DNA of 64,000 nt from Hyphomonas sp. (GTDB lineage: Bacteria > Pseudomonadota > Alphaproteobacteria > Caulobacterales > Hyphomonadaceae). The stretch lies in assembly GCA_013791775.1 (NCBI GenBank), contig VMTE01000044.1:186001-250000 (forward strand), written 5' to 3'. The notes under the pieces were generated by a model. The model had not been told where the DNA came from. It ran no database searches and worked only from the letters and a program-made list of their open reading frames with translations. The position numbers and the translations under genes are program-made. Positions 23,508 to 38,387 of the stretch are shown here, piece by piece. Every line of letters begins with the position of its first letter. Within the stretch, counting starts at the first letter, position 1.

Positions 23508-24472
23508 TCCGCGTCTCCGAAGGTTCGCCAGACGACGCGGGCCGCTGAGGAATGATCTGCGCGGAGCAGGAAGCGGAACTGCCAGTTTCCGGCGTCGAGC
23601 TGAACGTCGCCTTCGCCGGTGAAGTAGGTGCCCTGGACGGTCAGGGGCAGTCCGGCCAGGGCTTGTTCGAGGGCGGGACGGCCGGCAGCGTGGTCGCGCA
23701 CGGCCTGCAAGGTGGACCAGCCGGTTGCCGGGCGCGCCTCGATGAAGCGCCGGGCTTCGGCCATCGACAAGGCGCCCTGCGTGACGGCGTGCAGCAGGGG
23801 CGCCGCGCCGGGGTCTAGCGCATTGAGATTCAGCGGCGCGGGTTCATATCCGGGCAGGACGCAGGTGTGCACGGCAAGCGCAGAACGAAGATCAGCCGCG
23901 AAGCCCGGCAGCGCGGCGAGTTCCTGACGGCTGCGAAGCGGTTGGCTGGCTGCCCGGAAACTATCCTGCAGGGAGAGATAGTAGGGGTCTTCGGCGCCTG
24001 AAGGGCTCTCCACCCTATCGGCATCAACCCAGTCGGCAAGGGTTGCGATCAGAGCCTCGGCGTCGTTGCCGCGCACGCCGAGTTCCTCCAGCAACAGCGT
24101 GAGGACGGCGGCGCTACGCTGACGCAGGACGGGATCGGGATCGGCGAGCGTGTTGAGATTGAAGCAGGGCGCCTGTTCCTGGAGAGTGAGGATGACCTGT
24201 CCGCCATCAACCGGAAGCGCGACGGTCTGCGTGCGGCCGTCGCCGGACGGTGGCAGGCGGCTCGCCTGAACCAGATCGTGTACGGACGACAGGGCCGCCG
24301 CCTCAGCCGAGCGCGCGGCCCAGCTGGCGATCATGCGGCGCGCGCCGAGCTTCTGGATGGAAGTTTGCCGCGCGATGGCGCCCGTGGCGATCATTGCGGC
24401 GACCGACAGCGTGGCGACGATCAGCAGGATCGACAGGAGCGCCGCGCCGGCTTGCTTGCTTGCGGGGATCAT
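23504..24472 (-). CDS. gspK: Type II secretion system minor pseudopilin GspK
   Basis: GspK sits at the tip of the pseudopilus with GspI and GspJ. The 322-aa protein has a short leader with prepilin cleavage after Gly9 (KQAG/AALLSILLIV), lacks Glu at +5 as is normal for GspK, and has the large alpha domain and Cys-containing loops of the family (APCFNLNTLADPDPVLRQ; PAPLNLNALDPGAAPLL). The start is the ATG at 24472, overlapping gspJ by 4 bp; the frame is open further upstream only as a shadow. Confidence 0.92.
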   Translation of the reverse strand: MIPASKQAGAALLSILLIVATLSVAAMIATGAIARQTSIQKLGARRMIASWAARSAEAAALSSVHDLVQASRLPPSGDGRTQTVALPVDGGQVILTLQEQAPCFNLNTLADPDPVLRQRSAAVLTLLLEELGVRGNDAEALIATLADWVDADRVESPSGAEDPYYLSLQDSFRAASQPLRSRQELAALPGFAADLRSALAVHTCVLPGYEPAPLNLNALDPGAAPLLHAVTQGALSMAEARRFIEARPATGWSTLQAVRDHAAGRPALEQALAGLPLTVQGTYFTGEGDVQLDAGNWQFRFLLRADHSSAARVVWRTFGDAE

Positions 24473-25095
24473 GCGCCGCCTCCGATCAGGTAGCGCGTGG
24501 TCAGCGTGTCGCCGTCGCCGAAGACGAACCTGACTTCGGCCTTCTGCGGCGCCGGCTCGGTACCCGAAGCCGATACGAGCCATTCCGGTCGCCACGTGTC
24601 GCCGCGGCCAAAGCGGACATCTACCCGCTGGATACCGGTGAGCAGCGCCTGGTCGACGGACGGGGTCGCCGGACCGGGATCCGGCGCCAGCCAGGAGCGG
24701 CGGGTCAGTGTGCCGTCGGCGAAAATGTACTCGACGCGCTGAAGATCGCTGCGAACGTCTCCGGCCGGGTTCTGCCAGCCGTTCCGGACGAACACCATCA
24801 CCCGGCCATCGGCGCGCGGCGGGTAGCCTTCGAAGGCGAAAGCCGGATCCGACAGCGACGCGTCCTGACTTGGCCGGCCGGAATAGGCCGCGAGATCTGC
24901 CGAAATCATCGCGAGCGCGGAGGACAGCGCCGTCGCCGAAGCGCCGCGCGTCTCGACGGCCCGAGCGCCCCGGAGCGACTGGCTGGTCATTATCGCGCCG
25001 GCAGCTGCCATCAGGGCGATGACGAAAAGCGCGACCAGCGTTTCCACCAGCGTCACGCCGGCGTCGGCGCGCAGTTGGGAGGGCGAGCGGGTCAT
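24469..25095 (-). CDS. gspJ: Type II secretion system minor pseudopilin GspJ
   Basis: The 208-aa prepilin-like protein has its cleavage site after Gly13 (RADAG/VTLVETLVALFVIALM), with Thr then Leu-Val-Glu in the conserved start and Glu at +5. The globular part has the GspJ segments RVEYIFADGTLTRRSW and VDVRFGRGDTW. It forms part of the pseudopilus tip. It overlaps gspI and gspK by 4 bp. Confidence 0.92.
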   Translation of the reverse strand: MTRSPSQLRADAGVTLVETLVALFVIALMAAAGAIMTSQSLRGARAVETRGASATALSSALAMISADLAAYSGRPSQDASLSDPAFAFEGYPPRADGRVMVFVRNGWQNPAGDVRSDLQRVEYIFADGTLTRRSWLAPDPGPATPSVDQALLTGIQRVDVRFGRGDTWRPEWLVSASGTEPAPQKAEVRFVFGDGDTLTTRYLIGGGA

Positions 25096-25460
25096 GGCGC
25101 GGCGCTCCCGGTCGTCAGGAGCGAGAGACGGGCCAGCACGGAGTCGCTTCCCGCTTCGGTGACTTCGATGCGTACACTGTAGAGACCGGCGCGGGGCGCT
25201 GGCTCCAGCGTCCGCGTCCAGGCAAAGCTCCGGGTGCGTTGGACCTGCTCGCCCGCTTCTGTCTTGCCGGCAGACTCCAGCGTCCGGGTCACGGTATCCA
25301 CCGCGACGTTTTCGGCCACCGTGCGCGCGAGGAGGCGCGTGTCGAGTTCGCCGCTGATGCGGACCGACTGGGTGTTGAGCGACAGCAGACCCATGGCCGA
25401 TATCGAGAAGACCGAGAGGGCCACCATCGTTTCGAGAAGGGAGAAGCCGCGCGCGTTCAT
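25092..25460 (-). CDS. gspI: Type II secretion system minor pseudopilin GspI
   Basis: The 122-aa pseudopilin has the very short leader typical of GspI, with cleavage after Gly5 (MNARG/FSLLETMVALSVFSIS) and Glu at +5. The RLLARTVAENVAVD segment after the N-terminal helix is characteristic. It nucleates the tip complex with GspJ and GspK. It overlaps both neighbours by 4 bp. Confidence 0.93.
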   Translation of the reverse strand: MNARGFSLLETMVALSVFSISAMGLLSLNTQSVRISGELDTRLLARTVAENVAVDTVTRTLESAGKTEAGEQVQRTRSFAWTRTLEPAPRAGLYSVRIEVTEAGSDSVLARLSLLTTGSAAP

Positions 25461-25957
25461 TGGGGCGCCTGACCGGGAGCTGTCAGCGGCACGACGTCAA
25501 TCTGGCGGGTGCCGGCTTGCAGGCGAACGGGTGACCGGGCCGAGTGGCCGAGCGGATCGAATATCAGTGCCGGGACGATGGCGGCCTTGTCCTTGCGGGC
25601 GGCGCGCGCGTCCGGCCGCCGGGCGGAGACGCCGCGCGCAAATGTGTGGCGTGACGCCTCGGCGACGATCCAGTCGCCGCCTTGCCAGTCGGCGCCGGCA
25701 TAACCGGCTTCATCGAGCATCAGGGCGGTCGGGCGGCCCGACACGCGGGCGCGGGCTTCCAGCTGGGCCAGGGTATGGCCGAGCTGTTCGCTTTCGGTCT
25801 TGAGGGGATCGGCAGGGCGCGTCGTGGCAACGATCAGCACGGAGGCGAGCGCGACGATGGACAGTGTGACCAGCACCTCGACCAGAGACATGCCCGCCTG
25901 CTGCGCCAGCGCGGCGCGGGAGCGGGTGGTCTGCAGGGACGAGGGCGGCCGGCGCAT
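25457..25957 (-). CDS. gspH: Type II secretion system minor pseudopilin GspH
   Basis: The 166-aa pseudopilin has a leader ending at Gly22 (AQQAG/MSLVEVLVTLSIVALAS) with Glu at +5. A globular domain follows with GRPTALMLDEAGYAGADWQ and a late LIFDPLGHSARSPVRLQ typical of GspH/FimT-like folds. It links the GspG filament to the tip. The gene starts 6 bp after gspG and overlaps gspI by 4 bp. Confidence 0.9.
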   Translation of the reverse strand: MRRPPSSLQTTRSRAALAQQAGMSLVEVLVTLSIVALASVLIVATTRPADPLKTESEQLGHTLAQLEARARVSGRPTALMLDEAGYAGADWQGGDWIVAEASRHTFARGVSARRPDARAARKDKAAIVPALIFDPLGHSARSPVRLQAGTRQIDVVPLTAPGQAPQ

Positions 25958-25963
25958 CAGGGT

Positions 25964-26425
25964 TCAGTCCCAGTTGCCGATATCGGCGCCGGGACCTTCG
26001 CCGCCGGGCTGGCCATCGGCGCCGAGGGAGAAGAGGTCAAAGCGTCCGCCGGAGTGGGCGCCGGGGACCGCGTACTGATAGGGATTGCCCCACGGATCCT
26101 TATGTATACGGCGGACATAGCCACCGGGACGGTAGAGCGCTGCATCGACTCCCGGGGGTGGGGCGGAGAGCGCGGCGAGGCCGTCGGCGGCGCTGGGATA
26201 GGTGTAGAGATCCAGGCTGTACTGTTCGAGCGCGCTTTCGAGGCTGGCGATGTCGGAGCGCGCTTTCGAGATGCGCGAGCGGTCGCCGACAGGGGCGACG
26301 TTGACGATGATCAGCGTTGCGAGCAAGCCCATGATGAAGACGACGACCATGAGCTCGACGAGCGAGAAGCCGTGCTGCAGTGCGCGGCGCGCAGCATTGC
26401 GGCGGGGTGGGGTTGTGGGTGCCAT
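25964..26425 (-). CDS. gspG: Type II secretion system major pseudopilin GspG
   Basis: GspG is the main subunit of the periplasmic pseudopilus. The 153-aa precursor is cleaved in HG/FSLVELMVVVFIMGLLA (Glu at +5). The body is canonical: SALEQYSLDLYTYPSAADGL, KDPWGNPYQYAVPG and the calcium-binding C-terminus FDLFSLGADGQPGGEG ending in NWD. The ATG at 26425 is preceded by a strong GGAGG; a TTG 15 bp further up is less likely. The strong ribosome site fits its need for high output. Confidence 0.95.
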   Translation of the reverse strand: MAPTTPPRRNAARRALQHGFSLVELMVVVFIMGLLATLIIVNVAPVGDRSRISKARSDIASLESALEQYSLDLYTYPSAADGLAALSAPPPGVDAALYRPGGYVRRIHKDPWGNPYQYAVPGAHSGGRFDLFSLGADGQPGGEGPGADIGNWD

Positions 26426-26436
26426 GAATTCCTCCG

Positions 26437-27648
26437 TCAACCGAGGGCAAGGGTGTTGAGTTGCATGATGGGCAACATGATCGAGAGCACGATGGTGCCG
26501 ACGATGCCGCCGAGAACGACAATGATCAGCGGCTCAAGCAGGCTGAGCATCGTGCGGGTGGTGGCTTCGAATTCGCTTTCGAGAAAGTCCGCTGCGCGGT
26601 TCATCATGGCGGGCACGTCGCGGGCTGCTTCGCCGCTCTGCACCATATGGGTGAGCAAGGGCGGGAAGACGCGGGTGGTCTTCATCGCAGCAGACAGGGC
26701 GCCGCCTTGCTGGACCTTTTCGATGATGGATGTGGCCGCGTCGCGGAACACCGTGTTGCCCATGGCGCCGCGTGCGGCAGAGAGCGCTTCGATGACGGTT
26801 GCGCCGGAGCCGGCCAGCGTGGCGTGAACCCGGGCGAATTGGGAAGCCGACAGGGTACGGATCAACGGGCCGATCAGGGGCAGTTCCAGAAGGAACCTGT
26901 CGAGCGACTTCCGGAAGGCAGGGTTGCGCAGGGCTTGCGTGAACAGGAAGACGGCGCCGGCGACCGACAGGGCGATCAGCCATCCCGAGTTTCGAACGAG
27001 ATCCGACGCGCCGATCACGAGACGGGTGAGCAGGGGCAATTCGGTGGTGCCGAGCATGGCGAACTGTTCGACCAGCTTGGGCACGACGAACACCATCAGG
27101 GCGGAAACCATCAAAAGGGCCATGACACCGAGCACGGCGGGGTAGACCAGCGCGGCGCGGGCGGTGGCAGTCATGCGGTAGGTGCGTTCGAGATTGGTCG
27201 CGAGCTGTTCGAGCACGGCGGGTAAACGACCGGCGGCTTCGCCTGCCGCGACGACCGAACGGTAGAGCGGCGGGAAGGCCGCAGGCGCCGAGCGCAGGGC
27301 ATCGGCCAGCGAGACGCCTTCGAGGACCTGCGCGCGAACGCCGAGCACGAGCGACTTAACCGATTTCGGGTTGCCGTCTGCGGCGGCGGCCGTGAGGGCT
27401 TCCTCGACGGTCATGCCCGATTGAAGCAGCACGGCGAGTTGCCGCGTGAACAGGGTGCGTTCCTTGTGGGACAGGCGGGCACGCAGGCGGCGAACGCCGG
27501 GCTTGGCCTGGCCCGCTTCCTGGACTTCCACGGGTGTGAGCTGACGGGCGCGCAGCTCGCGGCGGGCCGCGCGGGGGGTGTCCGCCGAGATGACGCCGCT
27601 GGTGCGCTGGCCGTCTGCCGTCAGGGCCTTGTAATCATACGCCGCCAT
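26437..27648 (-). CDS. gspF: Type II secretion system inner-membrane platform protein GspF
   Basis: The 403-aa polytopic protein has two repeats of the T2SSF domain with three membrane helices (RAALVYPAVLGVMALLMVSA, LIALSVAGAVFLFTQAL, and the C-terminal LEPLIIVVLGGIVGTIVLSI). It begins MAAYDYKALTADGQRTSGVI, the standard family start, which fixes the ATG at 27648; this start overlaps the end of gspE by 14 bp. It is the rotary adaptor of the pseudopilus assembly machine. Confidence 0.94.
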   Translation of the reverse strand: MAAYDYKALTADGQRTSGVISADTPRAARRELRARQLTPVEVQEAGQAKPGVRRLRARLSHKERTLFTRQLAVLLQSGMTVEEALTAAAADGNPKSVKSLVLGVRAQVLEGVSLADALRSAPAAFPPLYRSVVAAGEAAGRLPAVLEQLATNLERTYRMTATARAALVYPAVLGVMALLMVSALMVFVVPKLVEQFAMLGTTELPLLTRLVIGASDLVRNSGWLIALSVAGAVFLFTQALRNPAFRKSLDRFLLELPLIGPLIRTLSASQFARVHATLAGSGATVIEALSAARGAMGNTVFRDAATSIIEKVQQGGALSAAMKTTRVFPPLLTHMVQSGEAARDVPAMMNRAADFLESEFEATTRTMLSLLEPLIIVVLGGIVGTIVLSIMLPIMQLNTLALG

Positions 27649-29119
27649 TCGACCAGGACTCCCTGCGGCAGACATGGAGCAGTTCTTCCGGGCTCGTCTC
27701 GCCGCTGAGGACGTGGCGCAGGCCATTCGAGAAGAGCATCTCGGCATTGGCGAAGGCGGCGCGCTCGATGGCCTCTTCGCTCGCTTGCTCGTGGATCAGG
27801 CGTTTGATATCGGCATTGATGACGAGGAGCTCGTAGACGCCGAGGCGGCCGGAATGACCGGTGCGGGCGCAGGCGTCGCAGCTGCCGGGATGGTAGAACG
27901 TGCCGTTGAAGTTTGCCGGCAGGCCGAGGCGGCCGAGCAGCGCCGCGTCCGGTTGGAACGGCGTCTTGCAGTGCGGGCAAAGGCGGCGCACGAGGCGCTG
28001 GGCCAGCACCGCGCGGAGCGTGGAGGCGAGCAGGAAGCTCTCGATCCCCATGTCGCGCAAGCGCGTGATGGCGCCGGCGGAGCTGTTGGTGTGGACGGTG
28101 GAGAGGGCGAGGCGTCCAGTCAGCGCAAACTCCAGCGCGACCTCGGCGGTTTCAGCGTCGCGGATCTCGCCCACCATCACGATGTTGGGGTCGTTGCGCA
28201 GGATCGACCGCAGGGTCGCTGCAAAGGTGAGGCCCACCTTGTGGTCCATCGGGGTCTGGCTGATGCCGTCGAGGCCGTATTCGACGGGGTCTTCCAGCGT
28301 CATGATGTTGACGCGGCCGGTGTTCAGCAGGGCGAGGGAGGAATACAGCGTCGTGGTCTTGCCTGAGCCGGTCGGGCCGGTGACGAGGATCACGCCGTTG
28401 GGCTCGGCGAGGACCGCCTTGAAGCGGTCATGGGTGAGCGGGTCCATGCCGAGGCCGTCAAGGCCGATGAGGGCCTGGCGGGTGTCGAGGATGCGCAGGG
28501 CGACGCGTTCGCCGTAGCGGGTGGGCAGTGTGGCGACCCGCACGTCCAGCGCGCGTCCGCCAAGGGACAGCGACACGCGGCCGTCCTGCGGCATCCGCTT
28601 TTCGGAAATGTCGAGCCGGCTCATAACCTTGATGCGGGACACGAGCGGCGCGGCGATGCGGCGGGAGGCGACGAGCACTTCCTGCAGTTCGCCGTCGATA
28701 CGGTAGCGGATCGACAGTTTTTCCTCGAACGGGTCGATGTGGATGTCCGAGGCGCGGCGCTTGACGGCGTCGTGCAGCAGGCCGTTGATCAGGCTGACGA
28801 TGGGGGCATCGCCCTCGCCGGCGAGCAGGTCTTCCGTCTGCGGAATACCGTCGAACAGGGTTTCCAGGCTTTCCTGCTTTTCAGCGGCGGCTGCGGCCGT
28901 GCCGTCCAGTGCCCCGCCGCCGAAACCTTCCGACAGCAGACGTTCGAATTCGACCGGTGAATGGGCTTCCAGCAGGAAGGTGCGGCCCAGCACCCGGCGC
29001 ACTTCGGTCAGCGCCAGAGGGCTGGCGCCTTCACGAACAGCGACCGTCAGCGGCTGGCGGCCAGGAATAACGGCAAAGCCCTTGTCCTTGGCAAATGCGT
29101 AGTGGACCTGCGCTCGCAT
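27635..29119 (-). CDS. gspE: Type II secretion system ATPase GspE
   Basis: This 494-aa cytoplasmic hexameric ATPase drives pseudopilus assembly. Walker A GPTGSGKT is at residues 248-255, with Asp box LEDPVEYG, Walker B NIVMVGEIRDAETAE and His box STVHTNSS. A zinc-binding tetra-Cys module (RRLCPHCKTPF and GSCDACARTGHSGR) follows. The N1E domain that binds GspL precedes. It begins 6 bp after gspD and overlaps gspF by 14 bp. Confidence 0.95.
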   Translation of the reverse strand: MRAQVHYAFAKDKGFAVIPGRQPLTVAVREGASPLALTEVRRVLGRTFLLEAHSPVEFERLLSEGFGGGALDGTAAAAAEKQESLETLFDGIPQTEDLLAGEGDAPIVSLINGLLHDAVKRRASDIHIDPFEEKLSIRYRIDGELQEVLVASRRIAAPLVSRIKVMSRLDISEKRMPQDGRVSLSLGGRALDVRVATLPTRYGERVALRILDTRQALIGLDGLGMDPLTHDRFKAVLAEPNGVILVTGPTGSGKTTTLYSSLALLNTGRVNIMTLEDPVEYGLDGISQTPMDHKVGLTFAATLRSILRNDPNIVMVGEIRDAETAEVALEFALTGRLALSTVHTNSSAGAITRLRDMGIESFLLASTLRAVLAQRLVRRLCPHCKTPFQPDAALLGRLGLPANFNGTFYHPGSCDACARTGHSGRLGVYELLVINADIKRLIHEQASEEAIERAAFANAEMLFSNGLRHVLSGETSPEELLHVCRRESWSNGGV

Positions 29120-29125
29120 GCGCGC

Positions 29126-31099
29126 TCACCTCGCCGGAACGATCGCCGACCCCATGGGCCCCGCTCCGCCCAGGACTTCGGCCACGTAACTGTCGATCGA
29201 GTTTTCCGGAGCGACGCCGCGCATCAATTCCTGGCCGCGAACATACAGGTATTTCTGCTCGGTCAGGTCGCGGGCATCTTCCTTGTTGCGCACGATCGTG
29301 GGCCGGATGAAGACCATCAGGTTTGTGCGCGTGGTGGCCTTTCCGTCGGAGCGGAACAGACGTCCCGCGAACGGCAGATCGCCGAGAACCGGTACCTTGG
29401 ACTGACGAACGGTATCGGTCTGCTCGACCAGGCCGCCGAGCACGATGATTTCGCCGTCGTCCGCCAGAACGCTGGCGTTGATTTCGCGCTTGTCGAGGAT
29501 CAGGTCCGGCGTCAGCGTGCCGACGCTGCCGAACACGCTGGAAACTTCCTGCCGGATGTCGAGGCGGACTGTGTCGTTCTCACCGATGCGCGGCGTGACT
29601 TCCAGCTTGATACCCACGTCTTCGCGCTCAACCGTGCGGAAGGGGTTGGAGTTGGCGTCTCCCAGAACCTGACCGGTCGTGACCGGAATTTCCTGACCGA
29701 CGATGAGCGAGGAGGTCGCGTTGTTGAGAGTCATGCCGAACGGGGTCGACAGAATGCGCGAGTTTGTGTCGTTTTCGACGGCGTTGAGGATGACGCCGAA
29801 CAGGCTGTCACCGGACTGGCCGCCGAAGCCAAGCGTCAGGCCGCTGGACCCGGTGAGCGAGCTGATGGCCGCGTCGCGGAAGGGGTTAGCCTTCGACAGA
29901 TCTTCGAAACCATCGGTGATCAAGGCGCCGGTCAGCGCGAGCAGGCTCGGCGCGGACCGCGAGAAGTTGGTGGAGGCGAAGGGAACGTCGCTGCCGCCGG
30001 TACCCGACAAGAGGAATTGCAGGCCCAGTTCCTTGGCCGTGTCGTCCGACATCTCGACGATGATCGCCTCGACCATGACTTGGGGACGGCGCACATCCAG
30101 GGCGGCGATCACCTTTTCCATTGCCACCAGCGTTTCGGCATTTCCGCTAATGATCAGGGAGTTGGTGGCGGGGTGGTGCGAAATGGATTGTGACGGCGGC
30201 GCTGTATCCGACGGGGAGCGCTGCGCGGCGATGCCCTGGCCGAGCCGTTCGAGGATCGGGACGATCTCGCCGGCGTCTGTGTAGTTCAGCGGAATGATGC
30301 GGATATTGTCGCGTTGTGGTTCGGTGTCGTCCAGCTGTAGCGCTACGCGGCGCGCGCGCTCCACCGATACAGAATCGCCCCGGAGAAGGATGGCATTGCT
30401 GGTCTGCGAGGCCACTGCGACGAAGCGCTTCGAGCCTTGCGACTGACCCGCTGCTGCCGAGGCCGCGTCGCCTTGCAGGCGGTTCAGCACCGCCTCCATC
30501 TCGAGGGCGGGCACGTTGCGAAGGGCGACGGTTTCGGTGACGCTCTGGTCCCGGTCGATCGTCTCGATCATCCGGCGAACACGCTGGAGGTTCGACGCGT
30601 AGTCGACGATCACCAGTGTGTTGGTGTTGGCATTCGCCGCCACCTGGCCCTGGCTGTCGAGCACGGGCTTGATCTGCTGGGCGACGTCCATCGCGTTGGC
30701 GTTGTCGAGCTTGATGATCTCGGTGACGAACGCGTTGGCACCCTGTCCCGAGGTCGGCGCTTCGGTGGCGGCGATGGCTTCGGGAACAATCCGGTAGGTG
30801 TCCTTGCCAGCGGGAATGGCCGCAAAGCCCTGAACACGAAGCGTGGTCAGGAAAACCTGGAACACTTCAGCTTTGCTCATCGGCGTCTGGGAGACCACCG
30901 ACACGCGCGCCTTGCGCACATCCGGGTGGGTGATGAAGGTGTAGCCGGTGAGCATGGACACGTCGGCAATCAACGTGTTGAGCTCAACATCCTCAAGCTT
31001 CAGGACGTGCTTTTCCTCGACCGGTGCCGGCGCTTGGGCGGCCGCAACCTGCGACACGGTGAGCGCGGCCGCAGCCGCCAACAAGATGCGATGGGTCAT
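29126..31099 (-). CDS. gspD: Type II secretion system secretin GspD
   Basis: The 657-aa outer-membrane channel protein has a cleavable signal (AAALTVSQVAAAQA), domains N0 (VLKLEDVELNTLIADVSMLT), N1-N3 (repeated FVTEIIKLDNANAMDVAQQI and TVALRNVPALEMEAVLNRLQ type units) and the secretin core with VPVLGDLPFAGRLFRSD. The C-terminus after the core is short, with no obvious long S-domain for a pilotin. It overlaps gspC by 4 bp. A Gln/Ser-rich loop in N3 (SAAAGQSQGSKRF) is normal for the family. Confidence 0.95.
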   Translation of the reverse strand: MTHRILLAAAAALTVSQVAAAQAPAPVEEKHVLKLEDVELNTLIADVSMLTGYTFITHPDVRKARVSVVSQTPMSKAEVFQVFLTTLRVQGFAAIPAGKDTYRIVPEAIAATEAPTSGQGANAFVTEIIKLDNANAMDVAQQIKPVLDSQGQVAANANTNTLVIVDYASNLQRVRRMIETIDRDQSVTETVALRNVPALEMEAVLNRLQGDAASAAAGQSQGSKRFVAVASQTSNAILLRGDSVSVERARRVALQLDDTEPQRDNIRIIPLNYTDAGEIVPILERLGQGIAAQRSPSDTAPPSQSISHHPATNSLIISGNAETLVAMEKVIAALDVRRPQVMVEAIIVEMSDDTAKELGLQFLLSGTGGSDVPFASTNFSRSAPSLLALTGALITDGFEDLSKANPFRDAAISSLTGSSGLTLGFGGQSGDSLFGVILNAVENDTNSRILSTPFGMTLNNATSSLIVGQEIPVTTGQVLGDANSNPFRTVEREDVGIKLEVTPRIGENDTVRLDIRQEVSSVFGSVGTLTPDLILDKREINASVLADDGEIIVLGGLVEQTDTVRQSKVPVLGDLPFAGRLFRSDGKATTRTNLMVFIRPTIVRNKEDARDLTEQKYLYVRGQELMRGVAPENSIDSYVAEVLGGAGPMGSAIVPAR

Positions 31100-31962
31100 T
31101 GGGAAAGGCTTGCGTTGGGAGCGACGCGAAGGCGGACGATGGCGCCCTGACGGACAACGTCCAGCGCCACATCTGCGCCGGTCGCGACCGTCCGGTGGAT
31201 CTGGTCAGGGCGCATGCCTTCGATGGCCTGTCCGTTGACGCGCAGGATCAGATCGCCCGATTGAAGCCCGGCTTCCTCGAAGGCGCCATTGCCGCGCGGC
31301 GCGAGCCGGTAGCCCGAAATCTCTCCGCCGCGAAATTCAGGCGTCAGGATCGTGTCAGCGGCGAGGCTGGCGGGTGTGATGTCATAGGACGGCGCGGTGT
31401 CCGCGCTGGCCATCAGGGTTATCGCGCCGGTGCCGGGCGATGGCTGCGGCGGCGCAAAAAGCGTGCGGCCGGCCGGGTAGAGGCTGAGAACTTCGAGTGT
31501 TCCATTCCGGCTGAGATGCACGGCGTCGGAGGTGACATTGACCAGAAGGACACCCGGGACGACTTCGTCGCCGGGCACAACACGGGTCTGATGGCCGTCC
31601 GGATGACTGATCACGGCGCTGCTGGCCATGGTGTCGCCCGAGACGGCGCGCACGCCGGCAAGCTTCAGATCGAGGGTGGTTTCCTGGGCGCTGGACTCGA
31701 GGCCTGTGGCCGATCCCGATTGCCCTTCGAACGGGTTCATCCGGGTCAGCAATGTGCGCTCGGATGCAGTATCGCCGGGCAGCGACGTGGTCACCAGATC
31801 AAGCGGGGCAACGCCAACTGTTCCGGGCGCCAGGATCACCCAGGCCAGGCGGCCCAGCAGGACGCCCACGGTTACTGTCAGGAGCGATTCGACGGCGACC
31901 CGGCCGACTTGTTCCACGCGCGCGTAGGAAACACTTCTTTCCATTCTGAAAAGTCCTGCCAT
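31096..31962 (-). CDS. gspC: Type II secretion system protein C (GspC)
   Basis: GspC links the inner-membrane platform to the secretin and helps select substrates. The 288-aa protein has a membrane helix at about residues 24-48 (LLTVTVGVLLGRLAWVIL), the homology region (LDLKLAGVRAVSGDTMASSA) and a C-terminal PDZ-like domain (GNGAFEEAGLQSGDLILRVN). The ATG at 31962 has AAGGGA upstream; a second ATG lies six codons on. It is the first gene of the gsp chain, with 151 bp to the TonB receptor stop upstream, where a Pho-box-like repeat lies. Confidence 0.92.
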   Translation of the reverse strand: MAGLFRMERSVSYARVEQVGRVAVESLLTVTVGVLLGRLAWVILAPGTVGVAPLDLVTTSLPGDTASERTLLTRMNPFEGQSGSATGLESSAQETTLDLKLAGVRAVSGDTMASSAVISHPDGHQTRVVPGDEVVPGVLLVNVTSDAVHLSRNGTLEVLSLYPAGRTLFAPPQPSPGTGAITLMASADTAPSYDITPASLAADTILTPEFRGGEISGYRLAPRGNGAFEEAGLQSGDLILRVNGQAIEGMRPDQIHRTVATGADVALDVVRQGAIVRLRVAPNASLSQ

Positions 31963-31994
31963 CCGAAATCCCTTGGCTCAGCCCCTGCACGGTA

Positions 31995-32012
31995 ATCACA
32001 CTTATGCGACAG
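31995..32012 (-). promoter_or_regulatory. Pho-box-like direct repeat upstream of gspC
   Basis: On the minus strand the sequence reads CTGTCGC-ATAA-GTGTGAT, two 7-bp units 11 bp apart, matching the PhoB consensus (CTGTCAT, 4 bp, CTGTCAT/C) at 11 of 14 unit positions, with an A/T-rich spacer. It ends 33 bp before the gspC ATG. No good -10 is visible downstream, so activity is uncertain. Confidence 0.35.
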
Positions 32013-32113
32013 TTCCGCGACGAAACGGGTCCATTTTTGCTTCAGTCTGTAGACCGTAGCGTCCCGGCAACGGTCTTCAGGTGAAACGCGGTACAGGTCT
32101 GCCTGAGCCCGGA

Positions 32114-34768
32114 TCAAAACTCCGTGCTCAGACCAAGCGAGACCGTCGTTCCGACGTCATATTGGTTGACCTGGACGAAGCCACCATTGCCCGACTGGTA
32201 TTCATCGAAGTCCTGGCCGAGCAAGTTCTGGGCCTTGAAATCAACGGTGAATTCGCGGCCGCGGATCTCCAGGCCTTTCTTGTAGACGAGGTCCAGATTG
32301 ATTCCGGGGTCCTGCACGAAATCAGGCTGGCCGCTGGGGCCACGGGCCGTGATACGTTCGCTGGCGTAGGTGGCGAGCAAGGTGAGCTGCGACTTGGCAG
32401 CTTCATCTTCCCAGCCGAGCTGCAAGTTGGCGAGGTGTTCGGATAGACCCTGCAACTGAGAACCGTCGACGATGAAGTTGGTGGCCGGCCGCGGCTGGCC
32501 GGCGGCCTGAAGCGGAAAGACAACGTCGCCTGCGCCGGCCTGCACGTCCGAAGTCGTGTAGGTGTAGTTGGCCTGAACGAGGAAGTCCTTTGATCCGAGG
32601 AACGGCCCGCTGAACGGCGACTCGAAGGTGCGTTTGAACTCCGCCTCGGCACCGGTGAGGGTCGCCTTCGGCGCGTTGAGGTAGGTCTGGAACACCGAGG
32701 CGCTCTGGGTAACCACAACGGCTTCAACTGGCTTGTCGAGGTCCTTGTAGAATACGCCGAAGGTCAGCGACTGACCGCGATCGAAATAATATTCGTAGCG
32801 CGCGTCGATGTTGGTGATCTCGGTATCGGTCAGGTAGGGGTTGCCGATGAAGATGCGGCTGCTATCCGGATCGTAGTATTGTTGCGGCGCCAGCTCGCGG
32901 AATTGCGGACGTCCAATGGTCTGGGAATAGCCGAGGCGGAATTGCTGGTCTTCCGCGAAGTTCCAGGTCAGCGTTCCGGCGGGAAGGATGTAGTTGTTCT
33001 TCACGCTCGGTGCGCTGGTGGGCGCGGCTTCAGAGGCAATCAAAGACAGAGGCGTCGTCGATTGGACGGCGTTTTCGTAACGCAGACCGAAAGCAACGCG
33101 CACTAGCGGAAGGACTTCCGCATCGATCTTGCCATAGAGGCCTACGACTTCGAGATCAGCATCATATGCTGCCGAACCGGAAGCACCGGTGATTTCGCGA
33201 AGTTCGAACCCGTTGACCGGGTTGATGTTGTAGTTCGCGAAAAGGTAGTCGGCGCGCTCCTGGGTCATCAGGAAGTCGAGCGGCGGATTGGCCGGGATGA
33301 ACTGGAAGATGCGTTGCTGGGCGCTGCGCTCGTCCTTGTAGGCTTCGAATCCGGCGGAGTATTCGATGTCCCGCGCCGAGGAGACCGGTTGTGTATAGGT
33401 GACATCAGCGCCTGTGCTGATCACCTTGTCATCCAGATAGCTGAAGGACAGGTTGTTGGCCGAACCGTTGCCGGTAGGGTTGTACACGAATCCGGAAAGC
33501 ACGGGCGAATCGACGTAGCGGATATCACGCTCGTACGGAGCATCGCGCTTGGTTTGCGACAGGGCGGTGCGCCAGTCGAACGTCCACGGACCGCGGAAGT
33601 GTTTGCCGTTGATCTGTGTGCTGTAGAGTTCACGCTCGTACCATGCTGTGCGGTCGGTGCGCGTGAAGCGCGAGGCCAGGTCGTCGAAGCCTTCTGTCGT
33701 GCGGGCTTCCTTCGATGTGCGGCGGATGTAGAGGTTGGTCCAGTCGATCTTGTCGTCGCCGAAATCGAGGCCGACGCCCAGCATGCCGTCCAGACCGATG
33801 TCCTGCGACGTGCGGGTGTAGTCGAAGAAGGTTGGTGCCAGCAGTACGCCGCCGCTGATTTCGCCCACTTCCTGACGACCATTGCGTGTGCGCCACTCAT
33901 TGCTGTAGCCGAGTACGCCGACGACGCCGAGTTCAAATGAGCCCATGTCGAACGACGTGCCGCCGGAGGCAGAGTAGCTGCCGTCGAGCGGAATCTGGTC
34001 GTTATCCTGCAGCAGGTTGATTTCGGCATTGGTGAAGCTGGTGCCGAGCGCCTGCAATTCAGTGGGAGTGAAGTTGCCGTTCACGATGCGCTGGCCCGTA
34101 GCCATGGCGCGCCGGACGGGTCCGGGCAGTTTGCGCGTGCCGTCATCGAAGCCGAGCGCGTCGGTGCTGCCGCCGGAGTAGACGAGACCCGACTGGCCGG
34201 TCGTCTCGCTGTTCCAGCCGCCACTGATCTTGAGGTCGAGGAAGCTTTCGGAAGGAATGCTCAGCGTGCGCAGATCGATGATGCCGCCGCCGAATTCCGC
34301 AGGATATTCCGCGGAATAGGTTTTCTGGACGAGGACGTTCTCGAGAATCTTGGTGGGGAAGAGGTCCAGCGGAACAACGCGCTGGAGCGGTTCCGGGCTG
34401 GGCAGTGGCGAGCCGTTGAGTCGGGCGGACGAGTAGCGCTCGCCGAGGCCGCGGACGTAGACGAACTTGCCTTCAGCGATGCTGAGGCCGGTGACGCGCG
34501 CAAGCGCTGCGGCAGCGTCCGAATCGCCCTGACGGGCGAGGTCTTCCGGGGCGAGGAAGGCCGCAACTTCCGATGTGCTCCGCAGCACTTCCGGAATGTA
34601 ACGGCCGAGCACCACGACTTCCTGAAGCTTGAGGTCGGACGTTTCAGCCGTATTGGCTTCCGGTTCCGCTTCGACGTCCGTTTCGGTCTGTGCGTAGACG
34701 AGTTCCGGCACCAGCATCGCGGTAGAAGCGACCAGCAGCGCCCGGAAAGTGAGCGAGTTGAATTTCAT
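32114..34768 (-). CDS. TonB-dependent outer-membrane receptor
   Basis: The 884-aa active transporter has a signal peptide (residues 1-26, ending in VYAQ), a probable TonB box near LQEVVVLGRYIP, a plug domain (VRGLGERYSSARLNGSPLP, then EFGGGIIDLRT) and a 22-strand barrel ending in the aromatic C-terminal signature TTVSLGLSTEF. The substrate is unknown. It lies directly between the ElpS-like lipoprotein and gspC on the same strand. A terminator hairpin sits upstream at 34808-34830, so it is read either by run-through or from a promoter in the 77-bp gap. Given the Pho-box-like sites around, a phosphate-containing ligand is possible but unproven. Confidence 0.92.
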   Translation of the reverse strand: MKFNSLTFRALLVASTAMLVPELVYAQTETDVEAEPEANTAETSDLKLQEVVVLGRYIPEVLRSTSEVAAFLAPEDLARQGDSDAAAALARVTGLSIAEGKFVYVRGLGERYSSARLNGSPLPSPEPLQRVVPLDLFPTKILENVLVQKTYSAEYPAEFGGGIIDLRTLSIPSESFLDLKISGGWNSETTGQSGLVYSGGSTDALGFDDGTRKLPGPVRRAMATGQRIVNGNFTPTELQALGTSFTNAEINLLQDNDQIPLDGSYSASGGTSFDMGSFELGVVGVLGYSNEWRTRNGRQEVGEISGGVLLAPTFFDYTRTSQDIGLDGMLGVGLDFGDDKIDWTNLYIRRTSKEARTTEGFDDLASRFTRTDRTAWYERELYSTQINGKHFRGPWTFDWRTALSQTKRDAPYERDIRYVDSPVLSGFVYNPTGNGSANNLSFSYLDDKVISTGADVTYTQPVSSARDIEYSAGFEAYKDERSAQQRIFQFIPANPPLDFLMTQERADYLFANYNINPVNGFELREITGASGSAAYDADLEVVGLYGKIDAEVLPLVRVAFGLRYENAVQSTTPLSLIASEAAPTSAPSVKNNYILPAGTLTWNFAEDQQFRLGYSQTIGRPQFRELAPQQYYDPDSSRIFIGNPYLTDTEITNIDARYEYYFDRGQSLTFGVFYKDLDKPVEAVVVTQSASVFQTYLNAPKATLTGAEAEFKRTFESPFSGPFLGSKDFLVQANYTYTTSDVQAGAGDVVFPLQAAGQPRPATNFIVDGSQLQGLSEHLANLQLGWEDEAAKSQLTLLATYASERITARGPSGQPDFVQDPGINLDLVYKKGLEIRGREFTVDFKAQNLLGQDFDEYQSGNGGFVQVNQYDVGTTVSLGLSTEF

Positions 34769-34807
34769 CGGATTGGGCCCTGATAAAAATATTGGGGAGT
34801 TGGAAAA

Positions 34808-34830
34808 CCGGGGACCCGCTGGGTCCCCGG
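34808..34830 (-). terminator. Rho-independent terminator after the ElpS-like lipoprotein gene
   Basis: Perfect 10-bp stem (arms 34808-34817 and 34821-34830) with a 3-nt loop. On the minus strand it is followed by TTTT. It lies 16 bp after the lipoprotein stop and about 40 bp before the TonB receptor start, so it should cut or attenuate transcription between the two, giving more lipoprotein than receptor. Confidence 0.8.
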
Positions 34831-34845
34831 TCGCCGCAAGTCAGA

Positions 34846-36411
34846 TCAGCAGGCCGGTTGGCCCGGGATGCCGCAGGTCCAGCCCTGGTACCATGTGTCG
34901 GAGGCGTTCTGCACGGCGCCGATATAGGTCACAGGGGTCAGGAAGTTCGTGGTGGCCGAGCCCGACAGCCCTACGCCGGTGTTCAGGAAAGTCGGGAACG
35001 TGGACGCTGGCACAGCGGTCTCGTTCGCGCCGTTGATGAAGCCGCCGGTGAGCGTTGATGTGCCAACAAGAATGTTGGCGCCGGCTTCGACCTGAGCTTG
35101 AACCTGGGTATCCGTGAGGGTGCCCGATCCATGATAGCTGCCACCCGGGCAGGACAGGAAGACCGAGTTGAACAGGGGGCCAGTCGGCGTCGTCGCACCC
35201 GCAGCGCCGTAGCTGACGTTGGTGAGGGTCACGGCGCCGTCAAGGTTGACGCACTGCTTGGTGGAGCCGTCAGCCGCCGCGATGACCGAGTTGTAAACCC
35301 GGCCCGTGTGTCCGCTGTTGAAGGTCAGGGCGCGGCCGGTGGTCGCCGACGAACGGGCCACGATGGTCCAATTCGAATAGGTCGGGCGGGAGAAGAAGTC
35401 GGTGGTGTTGGTGCCGCGCGAGCTGGCTTCGAAGCCACGGTCACCGCCACCGGTACGCTGGTAGACAATGCCGAACTGGGCCGCGCCGCGCCAACCGGAG
35501 TCAAGGTCGAAGCCATCATCGTCTTCACCTGAAAGCACGAGGTATTTCAGGTTGACGTTGCCGCCGAAGATCTCGATGCCGTCGTCCGAACTGTTGTGCA
35601 CCTGGACGTGGTCGATGGTGGTGCCCGAGCCGACGCCGGCCAGGGTGATGCCGTTCAGTTCGTTGCCCGGAGCCAGTTCGAAGCCGGAGAAGGAGAGACG
35701 GAGAAAGCGGATGCGGCCGCTGTTGTCAGCGGTCGAGTTGCCGCCGTAGAAGCCGTTGGTGCCTTCGACCTGGGCTTCGCAGGCGATGTTTGGCGGCGTG
35801 ACTGCGGCCGTGGTGCAACCATCCGTGGTCGGGCCGCGGCCGGCGATCACGAGACCGCCCCATTGGCCGATCGACGTGTCAGTTGCGGTGCCTTCGACGT
35901 TCTGGCGGCTGGTCATGATGACAGGGTTGGTCTGCGTGCCTTCCGCGAAGATCTGCGAACCGCGGTTCACGAGAAGGTAGTCGAGACCCGAGTTGCCGAA
36001 GATCGTGACGCCGGCTTCGACAGTCAGGATGCCGGCAGCGCTGCCGACGAGCGGGCTGAGCGGGTTCGGGCCCTGATCGGTGCCGACCTGCGTGCGGCCG
36101 CTGATTGAGTAGATTGTGCCGTCACGGGCAGGCACCACGAGGTTGCCGGTAATGGTGGAGGGCAATTGGCAGATGCGCTGGTTGGAAACCGTACCGACGT
36201 TCGAGAATCCGGCCGGGCAATCTGCAGCCGGCGTTCCGGGCGGTGTGGTCGGCGTCGTCGGCGTCGGGGTGGTGGGGGTAGGCGTCGAAGGGGCAGGCAC
36301 GAATGCGCCAACGCCCGGGGAGGCAACTCCATCAGCACCGCTGCAGGCGCCGAGGATGGCTACGGCAGCGCAAGCAAGCAGCGCCGAGCGGGTGGTATTG
36401 ATTTTCAGCAT
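34846..36411 (-). CDS. Large Cys-rich surface lipoprotein, ElpS-like
   Basis: The 521-aa precursor has lipobox AILGAC (Cys23) with Ser at +2, which favours the outer membrane. A Pro/Thr-rich linker at about residues 41-61 follows, then a large domain with many short beta strands (GTIYSISGRTQV, GILTVEAGVTIFGN, IRFLRLSFSGFEL, IDHVQVHNSSDDGIEIFGG) that looks like a right-handed beta-helix. Eight further Cys suggest disulfides outside the cell. In Caulobacter crescentus a phosphate-starvation lipoprotein, ElpS, is encoded beside a 12-gene T2SS and released in a T2SS-dependent way; the same setting here makes this a probable counterpart, though I cannot align them. The ATG at 36411 follows CGGAGA. 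A Pho-box-like site lies at 36541-36558. Confidence 0.8.
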   Translation of the reverse strand: MLKINTTRSALLACAAVAILGACSGADGVASPGVGAFVPAPSTPTPTTPTPTTPTTPPGTPAADCPAGFSNVGTVSNQRICQLPSTITGNLVVPARDGTIYSISGRTQVGTDQGPNPLSPLVGSAAGILTVEAGVTIFGNSGLDYLLVNRGSQIFAEGTQTNPVIMTSRQNVEGTATDTSIGQWGGLVIAGRGPTTDGCTTAAVTPPNIACEAQVEGTNGFYGGNSTADNSGRIRFLRLSFSGFELAPGNELNGITLAGVGSGTTIDHVQVHNSSDDGIEIFGGNVNLKYLVLSGEDDDGFDLDSGWRGAAQFGIVYQRTGGGDRGFEASSRGTNTTDFFSRPTYSNWTIVARSSATTGRALTFNSGHTGRVYNSVIAAADGSTKQCVNLDGAVTLTNVSYGAAGATTPTGPLFNSVFLSCPGGSYHGSGTLTDTQVQAQVEAGANILVGTSTLTGGFINGANETAVPASTFPTFLNTGVGLSGSATTNFLTPVTYIGAVQNASDTWYQGWTCGIPGQPAC

Positions 36412-36540
36412 GAGAGTCTCCGTCGTGATCCCTTTGCGGGCGCATCGGCGGAGACGTCCGCCGCGCATTTCAGACGATGACACCCGCCTACCCGCGAGCA
36501 GACCCTTAAGAAAGGTTTGCAACAGTTGCCGCAAGTTTAG

Positions 36541-36558
36541 ATGACGGTTCGGTGACAC
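36541..36558 (-). promoter_or_regulatory. Pho-box-like direct repeat upstream of the ElpS-like lipoprotein
   Basis: On the minus strand it reads GTGTCAC-CGAA-CCGTCAT: two 7-bp units 11 bp apart, 11 of 14 unit positions fitting the PhoB consensus. It lies 130 bp upstream of the lipoprotein ATG in the 184-bp gap between that gene and the dioxygenase, so it could drive the lipoprotein separately. Confidence 0.4.
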
Positions 36559-36595
36559 AGATGTTTGGGCGCTGTTTGTGTCGGCACGGCAACAA

Positions 36596-37441
36596 TTACA
36601 GGTTTGTGTAGTATTCCGGCGGGAACATTTCGCCCCAGCCACGTTCCCTGAACCACTTGGTGATGACGTACTTGGAGCCCTTTCGAACCTTCATCCCGTG
36701 ATGGATCGTGTACGGATTGACGGTGCCGTCGGGATTGAGATTGTTCCAGATCACGGCCTTGCCCTTTTCAGGCATGATCGTCTTTTCCAGCCGGCGGAAC
36801 CGCGTGCCGCCGCCTTCCTCGACATCATTGAGGTAGATCATGAAGGTCCAGGTGCGCTGGCCGAGGAACTGGCAAAAGACCTGATACTCGTGGGAGCCCG
36901 GAGTAAAATAATCGTAGTGGGCCTTGTATTCCTGGTCGAGGTCGTAGCGCTGGCCCTGCGTGATGTCGGCATAGGACCAGTGGATTCCGATTGCCTCCGC
37001 CATCAGCTCGTCAAGCTGCATGATCAGGTCATGTCCGAGCATGCCGATATCCGAAGTCCGCGAGGTCCGGATTTTCGGGTTGGCAAAGGCATCGGCCGTG
37101 GTGGAGGCGCGCAATTGGTGGTCGATGACATCGACCACCGCATCACAGACATCCGGCACCAGAAACTTGTTCCACACGTACACCTGAGCCTTGCCGGCGG
37201 GAACTTTCTGGATATCCGGATGGCTCAAGGCGCGGCGGGTGATCGCCGTCTGCGCGAGGGCAGGGTGGTTCACGCCGGCGATCGGGCGCCGGCCGTCATA
37301 GGCTTCCTGCATCAAGGCGCGAATCGCCGGCTCGTCCAAGCCCTTCAACCGGAGCAGCCGTCGAACCTCGAATGGTTCGATCCCGGCCCGGAGGCGGACC
37401 CAAGTGAAGGTCATCAGTTCTTCGTCGAGGGCTGTGGTCAT
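36596..37441 (-). CDS. 2-oxoglutarate/Fe(II) dioxygenase, prolyl 4-hydroxylase type
   Basis: The 281-aa protein has a C-terminal P4Hc domain of the 2OG-Fe(II) oxygenase superfamily. The iron triad is His175-x-Asp177 (KAHYDYFTPG) and His247 (YTIHHGMKV), and Lys257, ten residues later, should bind 2-oxoglutarate (KGSKYVITKWFRER). The N-terminal 85 residues are a small helical domain with TPR/Sel1-like or DUF character that I do not recognise. No signal peptide is evident, so it acts in the cytoplasm. It lies upstream of the Pro/Thr-rich lipoprotein on the same strand; proline or another side chain in that protein is a conceivable target, which is speculation. Confidence 0.88.
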   Translation of the reverse strand: MTTALDEELMTFTWVRLRAGIEPFEVRRLLRLKGLDEPAIRALMQEAYDGRRPIAGVNHPALAQTAITRRALSHPDIQKVPAGKAQVYVWNKFLVPDVCDAVVDVIDHQLRASTTADAFANPKIRTSRTSDIGMLGHDLIMQLDELMAEAIGIHWSYADITQGQRYDLDQEYKAHYDYFTPGSHEYQVFCQFLGQRTWTFMIYLNDVEEGGGTRFRRLEKTIMPEKGKAVIWNNLNPDGTVNPYTIHHGMKVRKGSKYVITKWFRERGWGEMFPPEYYTNL

Positions 37442-37481
37442 GGGAGGCTGCCTGCTGCAGTCCGGACGCTACGACGGTTCC

Positions 37482-37499
37482 ATGACGACGAAATGACAG
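37482..37499 (-). promoter_or_regulatory. Pho-box-like direct repeat upstream of the dioxygenase gene
   Basis: On the minus strand it reads CTGTCAT-TTCG-TCGTCAT: the first unit is the perfect PhoB consensus and 12 of 14 unit positions fit in all. Ten bases downstream lies TAGCGT, a passable -10 at the distance usual for PhoB promoters. The box ends 41 bp before the dioxygenase ATG. This is the best of three such sites in the block. Confidence 0.5.
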
Positions 37500-37555
37500 A
37501 AGCGCGTAGGTCATCGACCAATGGGCCGCAGGCATTCGTGGGCGTACAAAGAATA

Positions 37556-37580
37556 TACAGTATACTGTACGTCCTTGACA
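37556..37580 (+). promoter_or_regulatory. Perfect palindrome and -35 of the CAP-domain gene
   Basis: A perfect 14-bp palindrome, TACAGTATACTGTA (37556-37569), lies six bases before a consensus -35 TTGACA (37575-37580) pointing to the CAP-domain gene. The -10 is poor (CACTGT at 37598-37603). An operator of a dimeric regulator is likely; it is not the alphaproteobacterial LexA type. It could also act on the divergent dioxygenase gene. Confidence 0.5.
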
Positions 37581-37610
37581 CAAAAGGGTCACAAGCGCAC
37601 TGTGACACTT

Positions 37611-38387
37611 ATGTTACATCGCACTTCCATTTCCATGTCACTCTTGGTGCTGGCGCTTGCGGCGCCCGGGTTGGCGACTGCCGAAACCAAACTCATCCCG
37701 GTTAGTTTTGCCGGTCCTGCCGAGGTCTCGGACAGCGCGTCATTGCCGCGCGAGCTTGACGCGGCGCTGCTGGATATTGCCAACACCACGCGGGCCCAGT
37801 CGGGCCTTGCGCCTCTGAATTTCGACACCGGGCTGGCGGCGGTGGCAGAGGCACATGCCCGGGACATGGCGACAAGCGGATATGTCGGATATGCCGATCC
37901 ATCAGGCGCATCTTTGTTCGACAAGGTGCGCATTTCGGATCGCTCGGCCCTGATCGGATCGTTCGGGAGCAGCCTGGCCGTGCTGGATGCCGGCGCAACA
38001 GCCGCAGAAATCCACGGCGCCATCCAGTCGGATGCCGGAAATGCTGAAAACCTGCGACGGGGGTTTACCCACGCCGGCATGGGGACTTACGAATCAGGCG
38101 GCAAGGTTTTCGTGGTCCAGCTTTACGCGCGGATCGACGGCGAACTAGCTCAGCCGCTTCCCACCCGCCTGACGGATGCCACCCTGATCCAGCCGGCCTT
38201 GTTCAATGACGACATGACCACAATCGGGTGGTCCTTGAGCGATGAACAGGGCGCACTGCTGGCCAGAGGCTCGGGACGGCGCATTCACGGCGCTCAGGGC
38301 AGGACGCTCGAGGGCTTTCTCGATCTCGATGTCGCCGTGGGGCCTGACGTCTACACGTTGCGAGGGCCGTACGTTCAACTGAACTAG
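37611..38387 (+). CDS. Secreted CAP-domain (SCP/PR-1-like) protein
   Basis: The 258-aa protein has a signal peptide (MLHRTSISMSLLVLALAAPG, cleaved near LATAE). The first mature domain, about residues 45-160, is a CAP/SCP fold: LLDIANTTRAQSGLAPLNFD, AEAHARDMATSGYVGYADPSG and THAGMGTYESGGKVFVVQLY. The Tyr in YVGYADPSG stands where many CAP proteins carry His, so the usual His pair seems altered. A beta-rich C-terminal part of about 90 residues follows. Function of bacterial CAP proteins is mostly unknown. The ATG at 37611 gives the signal peptide. Terminator-like hairpin at 38421-38452. Confidence 0.82.
   Translation: MLHRTSISMSLLVLALAAPGLATAETKLIPVSFAGPAEVSDSASLPRELDAALLDIANTTRAQSGLAPLNFDTGLAAVAEAHARDMATSGYVGYADPSGASLFDKVRISDRSALIGSFGSSLAVLDAGATAAEIHGAIQSDAGNAENLRRGFTHAGMGTYESGGKVFVVQLYARIDGELAQPLPTRLTDATLIQPALFNDDMTTIGWSLSDEQGALLARGSGRRIHGAQGRTLEGFLDLDVAVGPDVYTLRGPYVQLN

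Follow-up and report, generated by a model that had tools for sequence, protein, structure and literature searches.

An ElpS-type secretion locus of Hyphomonas with an added prolyl-4-hydroxylase-type gene and predicted phosphate control

Introduction

In Caulobacter crescentus, now named C. vibrioides, the surface lipoprotein ElpS is made on phosphate starvation and is encoded next to a type II secretion system (T2SS) (Le Blastier et al., 2010; PMC2996285). The passages of that paper on this locus give the order as elpS (cc0170), a TonB receptor gene (cc0171) and gspC-N (cc0172-cc0184), and name a similar organisation for Xanthomonas campestris, Sphingomonas alaskensis and Hyphomonas neptunium. 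They describe ElpS as surface exposed without the T2SS too and as freed by cleavage immediately N-terminal to residue 38, 18 residues downstream of the lipidated Cys20, in a release that is T2SS-dependent and stopped by protease inhibitors; the same passages report no phosphatase activity for ElpS itself. Here we describe a locus of this type in a 64,000-nucleotide stretch of Hyphomonas sp. (contig VMTE01000044.1, positions 186,001 to 250,000; hereafter the window), in which a gene for a 2-oxoglutarate (2OG)-Fe(II) oxygenase of the prolyl-4-hydroxylase (P4H) type precedes the gene for an ElpS-type lipoprotein with a proline-rich linker.

A 2024 study assigned the Caulobacter T2SS to the PhoB regulon in the passages that concern it, and its main text makes no mention of oxygenase, prolyl or hydroxylase (PMC11208175). 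A Xanthomonas ElpS homologue is named in PMC8508651, in passages that draw no link to a prolyl hydroxylase. In the open-access literature, by title and abstract opening, no prolyl hydroxylase was found tied to ElpS or to this locus. A bacterial protein prolyl hydroxylase already described is PPHD of Pseudomonas, whose target is given as EF-Tu in the relevant passages of PMC4543633; its likeness to the window enzyme is one of description.

The locus compared with the Caulobacter system

On the minus strand of the window, the oxygenase gene (281 amino acids (aa), 36596..37441) is followed by the genes for the lipoprotein (521 aa, 34846..36411), a TonB-dependent receptor (884 aa, 32114..34768; Pfam plug and barrel), gspC-N and a small lipoprotein. 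These five kinds of component stand in the order given by a previous sequence-only reading of the stretch, which had set the block at 31096-37499; the order holds, and the small lipoprotein (20685-21170) and the T2SS genes down to 21167 fall outside that span. For the ElpS-type lipoprotein, the list of open reading frames gives a GTG start at 36642, and homologues favour the ATG at 36411, which yields the 521-aa form. It was characterised through its translation, alignments A1 and A2, AlphaFold2 and Foldseek.

The Caulobacter comparison was made with C. vibrioides strain T5M6, while the published ElpS work used strain CB15. The lipoprotein is 51% identical by BLAST (56% in alignment A2) to its syntenic T5M6 counterpart beside the T2SS, which bears out its earlier description as ElpS-like. 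The receptor is also 51% identical to the T5M6 receptor (BLAST), and the T5M6 gene order is identical. An ElpS-homologous lipoprotein, a TonB receptor between it and gspC, and a gspC-N set are all present, and the assignment to the ElpS-T2SS type of locus is strong.

Component order, a homologous lipoprotein (as compared with T5M6) and a phosphate link, measured in Caulobacter and predicted here, are common to both systems. The sequence-only reading had regarded the hydroxylase and a dedicated receptor as additions to the Caulobacter plan. The receptor is not an addition, because lipoprotein, receptor and T2SS follow the published order of elpS, cc0171 and gspC-N; as the positional equivalent of cc0171 it was rejected as a new component (PMC2996285). 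The hydroxylase, absent from that published order, is indeed an extra part, although its P4H type, its tie to a proline-rich linker and its recurrence elsewhere had been missed. Beyond the upstream P4H gene, the window differs from the Caulobacter locus by a divergent gene for a CAP-domain protein, by conserved Pho-like blocks before P4H and gspC, and by its linker, which is Pro/Thr-rich, whereas that of T5M6 has 7 Pro and 11 Gly among 37 residues.

The oxygenase is of the prolyl-4-hydroxylase type

The oxygenase matches PF13640 (2OG-FeII_Oxy_3) at E 9e-16. A phmmer search against solved structures gave nine matches, including Bacillus anthracis P4H (5iax/3itq, E ~1e-23), human C-P4H alpha2 and Chlamydomonas P4H; all are named prolyl hydroxylase or P4H-type except 3gze, which is titled 'Predicted protein'. 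Aligned to the B. anthracis enzyme, residues H175, D177, H247 and K257 fall on what we take to be the Fe and 2OG ligands; all four are identical in 37 of 37 rows of locus and near-locus P4Hs. The HxD...H and Lys ligand set is present in a P4H-type domain, and the oxygenase is, by sequence, a prolyl-4-hydroxylase type with intact catalytic residues. An identity like that of PiuC, an iron-linked 2OG hydroxylase, was considered because of the receptor and dropped, since the structure matches are of the P4H type.

The window enzyme shares its catalytic domain, with HxD...H and Lys, with the B. anthracis P4H (3itq/5hv0/5iax); the match begins at residue 88 and leaves the earlier part uncovered. Unlike that P4H, it is tied genetically to a surface lipoprotein, and PhoB control is predicted for it. 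The Chlamydomonas P4H (2jig, 3gze) is likewise homologous, and its substrates, proline-rich wall proteins, resemble the extended proline-rich stretch proposed as the substrate here; it is eukaryotic, whereas the window P4H is bacterial and presumably cytoplasmic. No export signal was seen by eye in the window P4H, so action in the cytoplasm would be expected.

Linkage of the hydroxylase and the lipoprotein across genomes

The grouping of lipoprotein, receptor and oxygenase that had been read from this one stretch recurs in relatives. In the window and six mapped Hyphomonas relatives, P4H lies directly upstream of the lipoprotein; all six keep the order CAP (divergent), P4H, lipoprotein, receptor and gspC, which argues that the arrangement is more than chance. 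Among 21 genomes of the genus, its own included, a close lipoprotein match (66-100% identity) and a strong match to P4H coincide in the same seven, and P4H has no match in the remaining 14.

A survey of 80 named loci partly repeats the Hyphomonas and Caulobacteraceae genomes surveyed; G249, one of the Xanthomonas-order genomes below, is the genome of locus L171. The isolate Hyphomonas polymorpha PS728 (L135) carries the locus. P4H adjoins the lipoprotein in 10 of the 11 Hyphomonas-type loci, the eleventh being L132, whose contig begins at the lipoprotein and so has no upstream sequence. In the Xanthomonadaceae, all 20 loci likewise have a P4H beside the lipoprotein, there on the other strand, and at L179 (Xanthomonas nasturtii) the adjacent P4H gene is in two pieces. 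P4H was not found in the remaining 49 loci, some of which have short upstream sequence. Lipoprotein matches were obtained in 93 of 200 genomes of the Xanthomonas order; the four strong ones (E < 1e-130) have an adjacent P4H, and for the 89 more distant ones the listed positions show no P4H closer than 10 kb. Within family f2, taken to be Caulobacteraceae from contigs that it shares with named records, a P4H match was present in 4 of 30 lipoprotein-positive genomes, three times on other contigs and once about 43 kb away.

A scan of 385 alphaproteobacterial genomes returned P4H matches at E 1e-30 or better in five, namely the genome under study and four of one other family. In one genome of that family (G479), lipoprotein and receptor are followed by a P4H convergent with the receptor; in the other three, the 20 kb fetched yielded a single weak lipoprotein fragment and no further match. 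Hyphomonas, Xanthomonadaceae and G479 each have the pairing in a layout of their own, which makes three lineages and three layouts. A Steroidobacteraceae assembly has the lipoprotein beside a PstS-like gene at the end of one contig, and a second contig opens with a P4H and a receptor side by side; our guess is that the two contigs adjoin.

Trees were built from 57 and 38 P4H proteins. The Hyphomonas-locus P4Hs form a clade (support 100/99), which joins P4Hs that a second genus of the same family has in leuC/purK-like surroundings (99/94 and 98/92). The G479 P4H groups with enzymes of its own family outside the locus (99/97). The Xanthomonadaceae P4Hs lie across a 100/99 branch, with enzymes beside pst, prolyl oligopeptidase and pyrophosphatase genes, and those of the locus have weak support as a single group (58/20 and 86/58). 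As each lineage has nearer P4H relatives outside such loci, repeated recruitment is suggested. Three separate P4H-lipoprotein associations would be the simplest reading of these trees; an older association with later losses is a possible alternative.

Further P4H contexts were recorded in the course of the survey. At L280:1438-6044 (G335, not among the 93 lipoprotein-matching genomes), a P4H 56% identical to a Xanthomonadaceae locus P4H neighbours the gene for a phosphate-selective porin, next to which are pstS and permease genes. At L290:2730-6494 and similar loci in L282-L297, P4H is found by prolyl oligopeptidase (S9) and inorganic pyrophosphatase genes, as checked with Pfam in L290. In another genus of the same family as Hyphomonas, two tandem P4H genes (L071:9504-11362) lie by purK/purE-like and leuC-like genes (named by eye), and no lipoprotein match was found in the 19 kb fetched there.

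The linker and the predicted fold of the lipoprotein

The lipoprotein has the lipobox LGAC and nine cysteines, including the lipidated one, that are invariant in all 30 rows of alignment A2. Residues 24-64 (36220..36342, minus strand), marked by low predicted local distance difference test (pLDDT) values and by proline count, form a Pro/Thr-rich linker that we propose as the P4H substrate. Nineteen proteins of the locus and its flanks were compared for proline density, and the Pro/Thr stretch of this linker ranks highest, with 11 Pro in 30 aa. The linker of the T5M6 protein is 37 residues long and Caulobacter ElpS is cut before residue 38 (passages of PMC2996285), so the release cut is judged to fall inside the linker.

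Linkers were parsed from 74 of the 80 loci. All 28 P4H-adjacent linkers have 11-17 Pro (median 14) and a median of 6 Gly, compared with medians of 6 Pro and 11 Gly in the 45 linkers without an adjacent P4H. The linker at L179, where P4H is in two pieces, has 14 Pro, and that of G479 is also proline-rich; the Brevundimonas linker is rich in Gly and has few Pro. A P4H elsewhere in the genome was found for five of eight loci with a proline-rich linker and no adjacent P4H, against two of eight with a proline-poor one, which are too few to count.

The lipoprotein family is present in 178 of 249 genomes of the order, and the nearest named relative of the window protein, in a Hyphomonas sp. assembly, is 93% identical. 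It occurs in a single-domain form of ~520 aa and a tandem two-domain form of ~940 aa, the latter common in the order (L300-L319). Most of the tandem-form linkers read are not proline-rich: 20 two-domain lipoproteins without an adjacent P4H were fetched, of which 16 yielded a protein, and by eye L317 and L318 have proline-rich linkers and the other 14 do not.

The AlphaFold2 model of the lipoprotein has a pLDDT of 83.5 and a predicted TM-score (pTM) of 0.84; the first 60 residues fall at pLDDT 32-51 and the remainder is beta-rich. A Foldseek search with this model gave no match at E <= 0.001, and the top matches above that value are beta-helix enzymes and tailspikes. The sequence had no solved-structure match up to E 1 and no Pfam match up to E 0.01, with chance-level families alone up to E 10. 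In the model a disordered linker precedes a beta-rich core, for which the best fold matches suggest a beta-helix.

PhoB-box-like sites at the locus

Four places in the locus resemble PhoB boxes, as judged against a Pho-box consensus. Upstream of elpS, a site at 36541..36558 (minus strand) has 3 mismatches; its core TCAC-N2-AA-N2-GTCATCTAAACTT is kept in 7 of 7 Hyphomonas genomes, with at most 4 mismatches to consensus in 3 of them. The site proximal to P4H (37482..37499, minus strand) has 2 mismatches and a core, GTCAT-N5-CGTCA, that is kept in all seven. A site in the P4H/CAP intergenic region (TGTAACATAANTGTCACA, 37600..37619), likewise conserved in 7 of 7, may serve either gene, and upstream of gspC lies a run of 11-bp repeats (31995..32023, minus strand) with CTGTCGCANNAGTGTGAT in 7 of 7 genomes. 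When the upstream regions of the seven genomes were aligned, sharply conserved blocks resembling 11-bp repeats stood out ahead of three genes (oxygenase, lipoprotein, gspC) and between the oxygenase and CAP genes.

Two matrices were scanned over 127966 window positions, the promoter regions of the locus making up 0.8% of the window. The first was made from three sites at pstS and pstC of the same genome, originally found by consensus search, and the second added the site upstream of another receptor gene; 15 genome sites had been inspected, and from these the pstS, pstC and single receptor-gene sites were selected because of the genes downstream. With the pst sites only, the gspC site (rank 1) and the P4H/CAP intergenic site (ranks 2-3, one place read on both strands) hold ranks 1-3, and the elpS site is at rank 9. 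With four sites, ranks 1-5 are all filled by sites of three locus promoter regions: elpS at rank 1, gspC at ranks 2 and 5, and P4H/CAP at ranks 3-4. Neither of two control matrices, one backward and one half-swapped, ranked a locus site first.

The consensus scan of the genome gave 122 matches against 85 for the reversed pattern; one match, with zero mismatches, lies directly upstream of another gene for a TonB receptor with a CarboxypepD_reg domain (L115, G000:C20:117718), which is likely a further Pho gene. A plain search with the consensus does not reach significance alone; the argument is carried by the conserved blocks and by the matrix trained on pst sites. Predicted boxes of 11-bp repeats like those at the organism's own pst genes are present upstream, weakly so at the P4H-proximal site, and phosphate control of the locus through PhoB is predicted on these grounds.

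In other groups, Caulobacterales loci scanned with approximate gene starts showed scattered Pho matches. The P4H/lipoprotein intergenic region gave weak matches only (3-4 mismatches) in four Xanthomonas loci, and no Pho site was found in that region of Luteimonas; the Xanthomonas scan also showed a site with 1-2 mismatches near gspC, on the other strand, in four scanned close relatives.

Other features of the window

The T2SS genes lie on the minus strand and comprise gspC (31096..31962; PF11356, T2SSC), the secretin gene gspD (29126..31099; TIGR02517 above cut-off), the ATPase gene gspE (27635..29119; Pfam T2SSE), gspF (26437..27747; TIGR02120 above cut-off), whose start is uncertain and whose reading frame overlaps gspE, and gspG, H, I, J, K, L, M and N (21167..26440; Pfam). 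GspH was assigned from position only, its N_methyl match being slightly below cut-off. The small lipoprotein (161 aa, 20685..21170, minus strand; lipobox LTAC by translation) overlaps the end of gspN by 4 bases and has no Pfam match.

On the plus strand, the divergent gene at 37635..38387 encodes an exported CAP-domain protein (PF00188 and translation); its start was placed by eye and is uncertain, and the span is also given as 37521-38387. It shares with P4H the intergenic region that contains conserved Pho-like half-sites and neighbours P4H in the six mapped relatives. Genes for a heavy-metal P-type ATPase and FixH (Pfam) were seen at 41637-44371, a pairing that we take to be as in cytochrome cbb3 clusters.

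Discussion

We read this locus as an ElpS-type phosphate-starvation locus with an added P4H that would hydroxylate the ElpS-type tether before export and thereby tune its release, and we give this reading a probability of roughly one half. On low phosphate, PhoB would bind upstream of P4H, of the lipoprotein (with the receptor after it) and of gspC, and the block would be switched on. The cytoplasmic P4H, with Fe(II), 2OG and O2, would then hydroxylate linker prolines before Sec export. Once lipidated, the lipoprotein would be held at the outer surface next to the TonB receptor, its beta-helix head borne by a long disordered tether. A T2SS-secreted protease would cut the tether and free the head, as proposed for Caulobacter ElpS. 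Hydroxyprolines might stiffen the tether or alter its protease sensitivity or glycosylation, and so set the shares that stay anchored and are released. Three of these steps we infer: that PhoB binds in this organism, that P4H hydroxylates the linker, and that this affects release.

Several points weigh against this reading. Hydroxylation of the linker is deduced from sequence. Caulobacter ElpS functions without an adjacent P4H in the T5M6 locus, and no site with at most 4 mismatches was found in the T5M6 stretches scanned (L077). According to passages of PMC2996285, the Caulobacter T2SS genes are expressed in rich medium too, with 1.7-fold more expression in poor medium. Relatives of the window P4H occur in other gene contexts. 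At least 11 Pro are found in 8 of the 45 linkers without an adjacent P4H (L132, L140, L160, L174, L189, L198, L202 and L209), and for L132, L140 and L202 no P4H was found anywhere in the genome. Only two clades contribute to the 28 P4H-adjacent linkers, of which 9 are Hyphomonas-type and 19 are from Xanthomonadaceae; because the pairing is restricted to few lineages and two linker clades, the correlation has few independent points. As to the Pho sites, the P4H-proximal one is weak (rank 20 in the matrix scan), the locus sites are 2-5 positions off the consensus, and the consensus scan of the window was not above chance, with 3 matches against 2.8 expected.

The rival that survives best is an ordinary ElpS-T2SS phosphate locus whose P4H belongs to the phosphate response and has another target, either exported or cytoplasmic, as in the hydroxylation of EF-Tu by PPHD described in passages of PMC4543633. 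The related P4H beside phosphate-selective porin, pstS and permease genes in G335, outside the lipoprotein-matching genomes, fits such a role, and so do the P4Hs that adjoin prolyl oligopeptidase and inorganic pyrophosphatase genes or sit between metabolic genes. We nevertheless consider it unlikely, as it leaves unexplained both the proline-rich linkers of P4H-adjacent lipoproteins, compared with most others, and the recurrence beside the lipoprotein in three lineages.

Some 2OG enzymes occur beside TonB receptors, and the window oxygenase stands in a block with one, so that it could act on a small molecule, such as a phosphorus compound or a siderophore imported through the receptor, instead of on a protein. 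The nine structure matches, prolyl hydroxylases or P4H-type with the exception of 3gze, speak against this possibility and make it improbable. Slightly less probable again is a P4H that is a passenger, a neighbour by descent with no functional tie: the linkage within Hyphomonas could stem from one event, but three lineages with three layouts and separate P4H ancestry, and the conserved Pho-like blocks in front of P4H, argue otherwise.

If the reading of a P4H that modifies the ElpS-type tether is extended to all three lineages, several of them may separately have recruited a collagen/plant-type P4H for a proline-rich tether. This view, which we hold a little more tentatively, would define a class of PhoB-controlled, hydroxyproline-rich surface proteins in which an O2- and 2OG-dependent modification decides between anchoring and shedding by the T2SS route.

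To our knowledge, the natural target of most bacterial prolyl-4-hydroxylases is not known. The locus supplies a candidate P4H substrate, with low phosphate as the condition and, as readout, whether the lipoprotein is anchored or released, and the pairings in other bacterial groups make the action of P4H on the tether worth testing. For the little-studied ElpS system, a fold is predicted and, in Hyphomonas, a signature of PhoB sites is described; the lipoprotein-P4H pairing is extended to Xanthomonadaceae and to one genome of a further alphaproteobacterial family. If true, the proposed mechanism would connect nutrient starvation and the shedding of surface proteins in bacteria with post-translational hydroxylation of proline.

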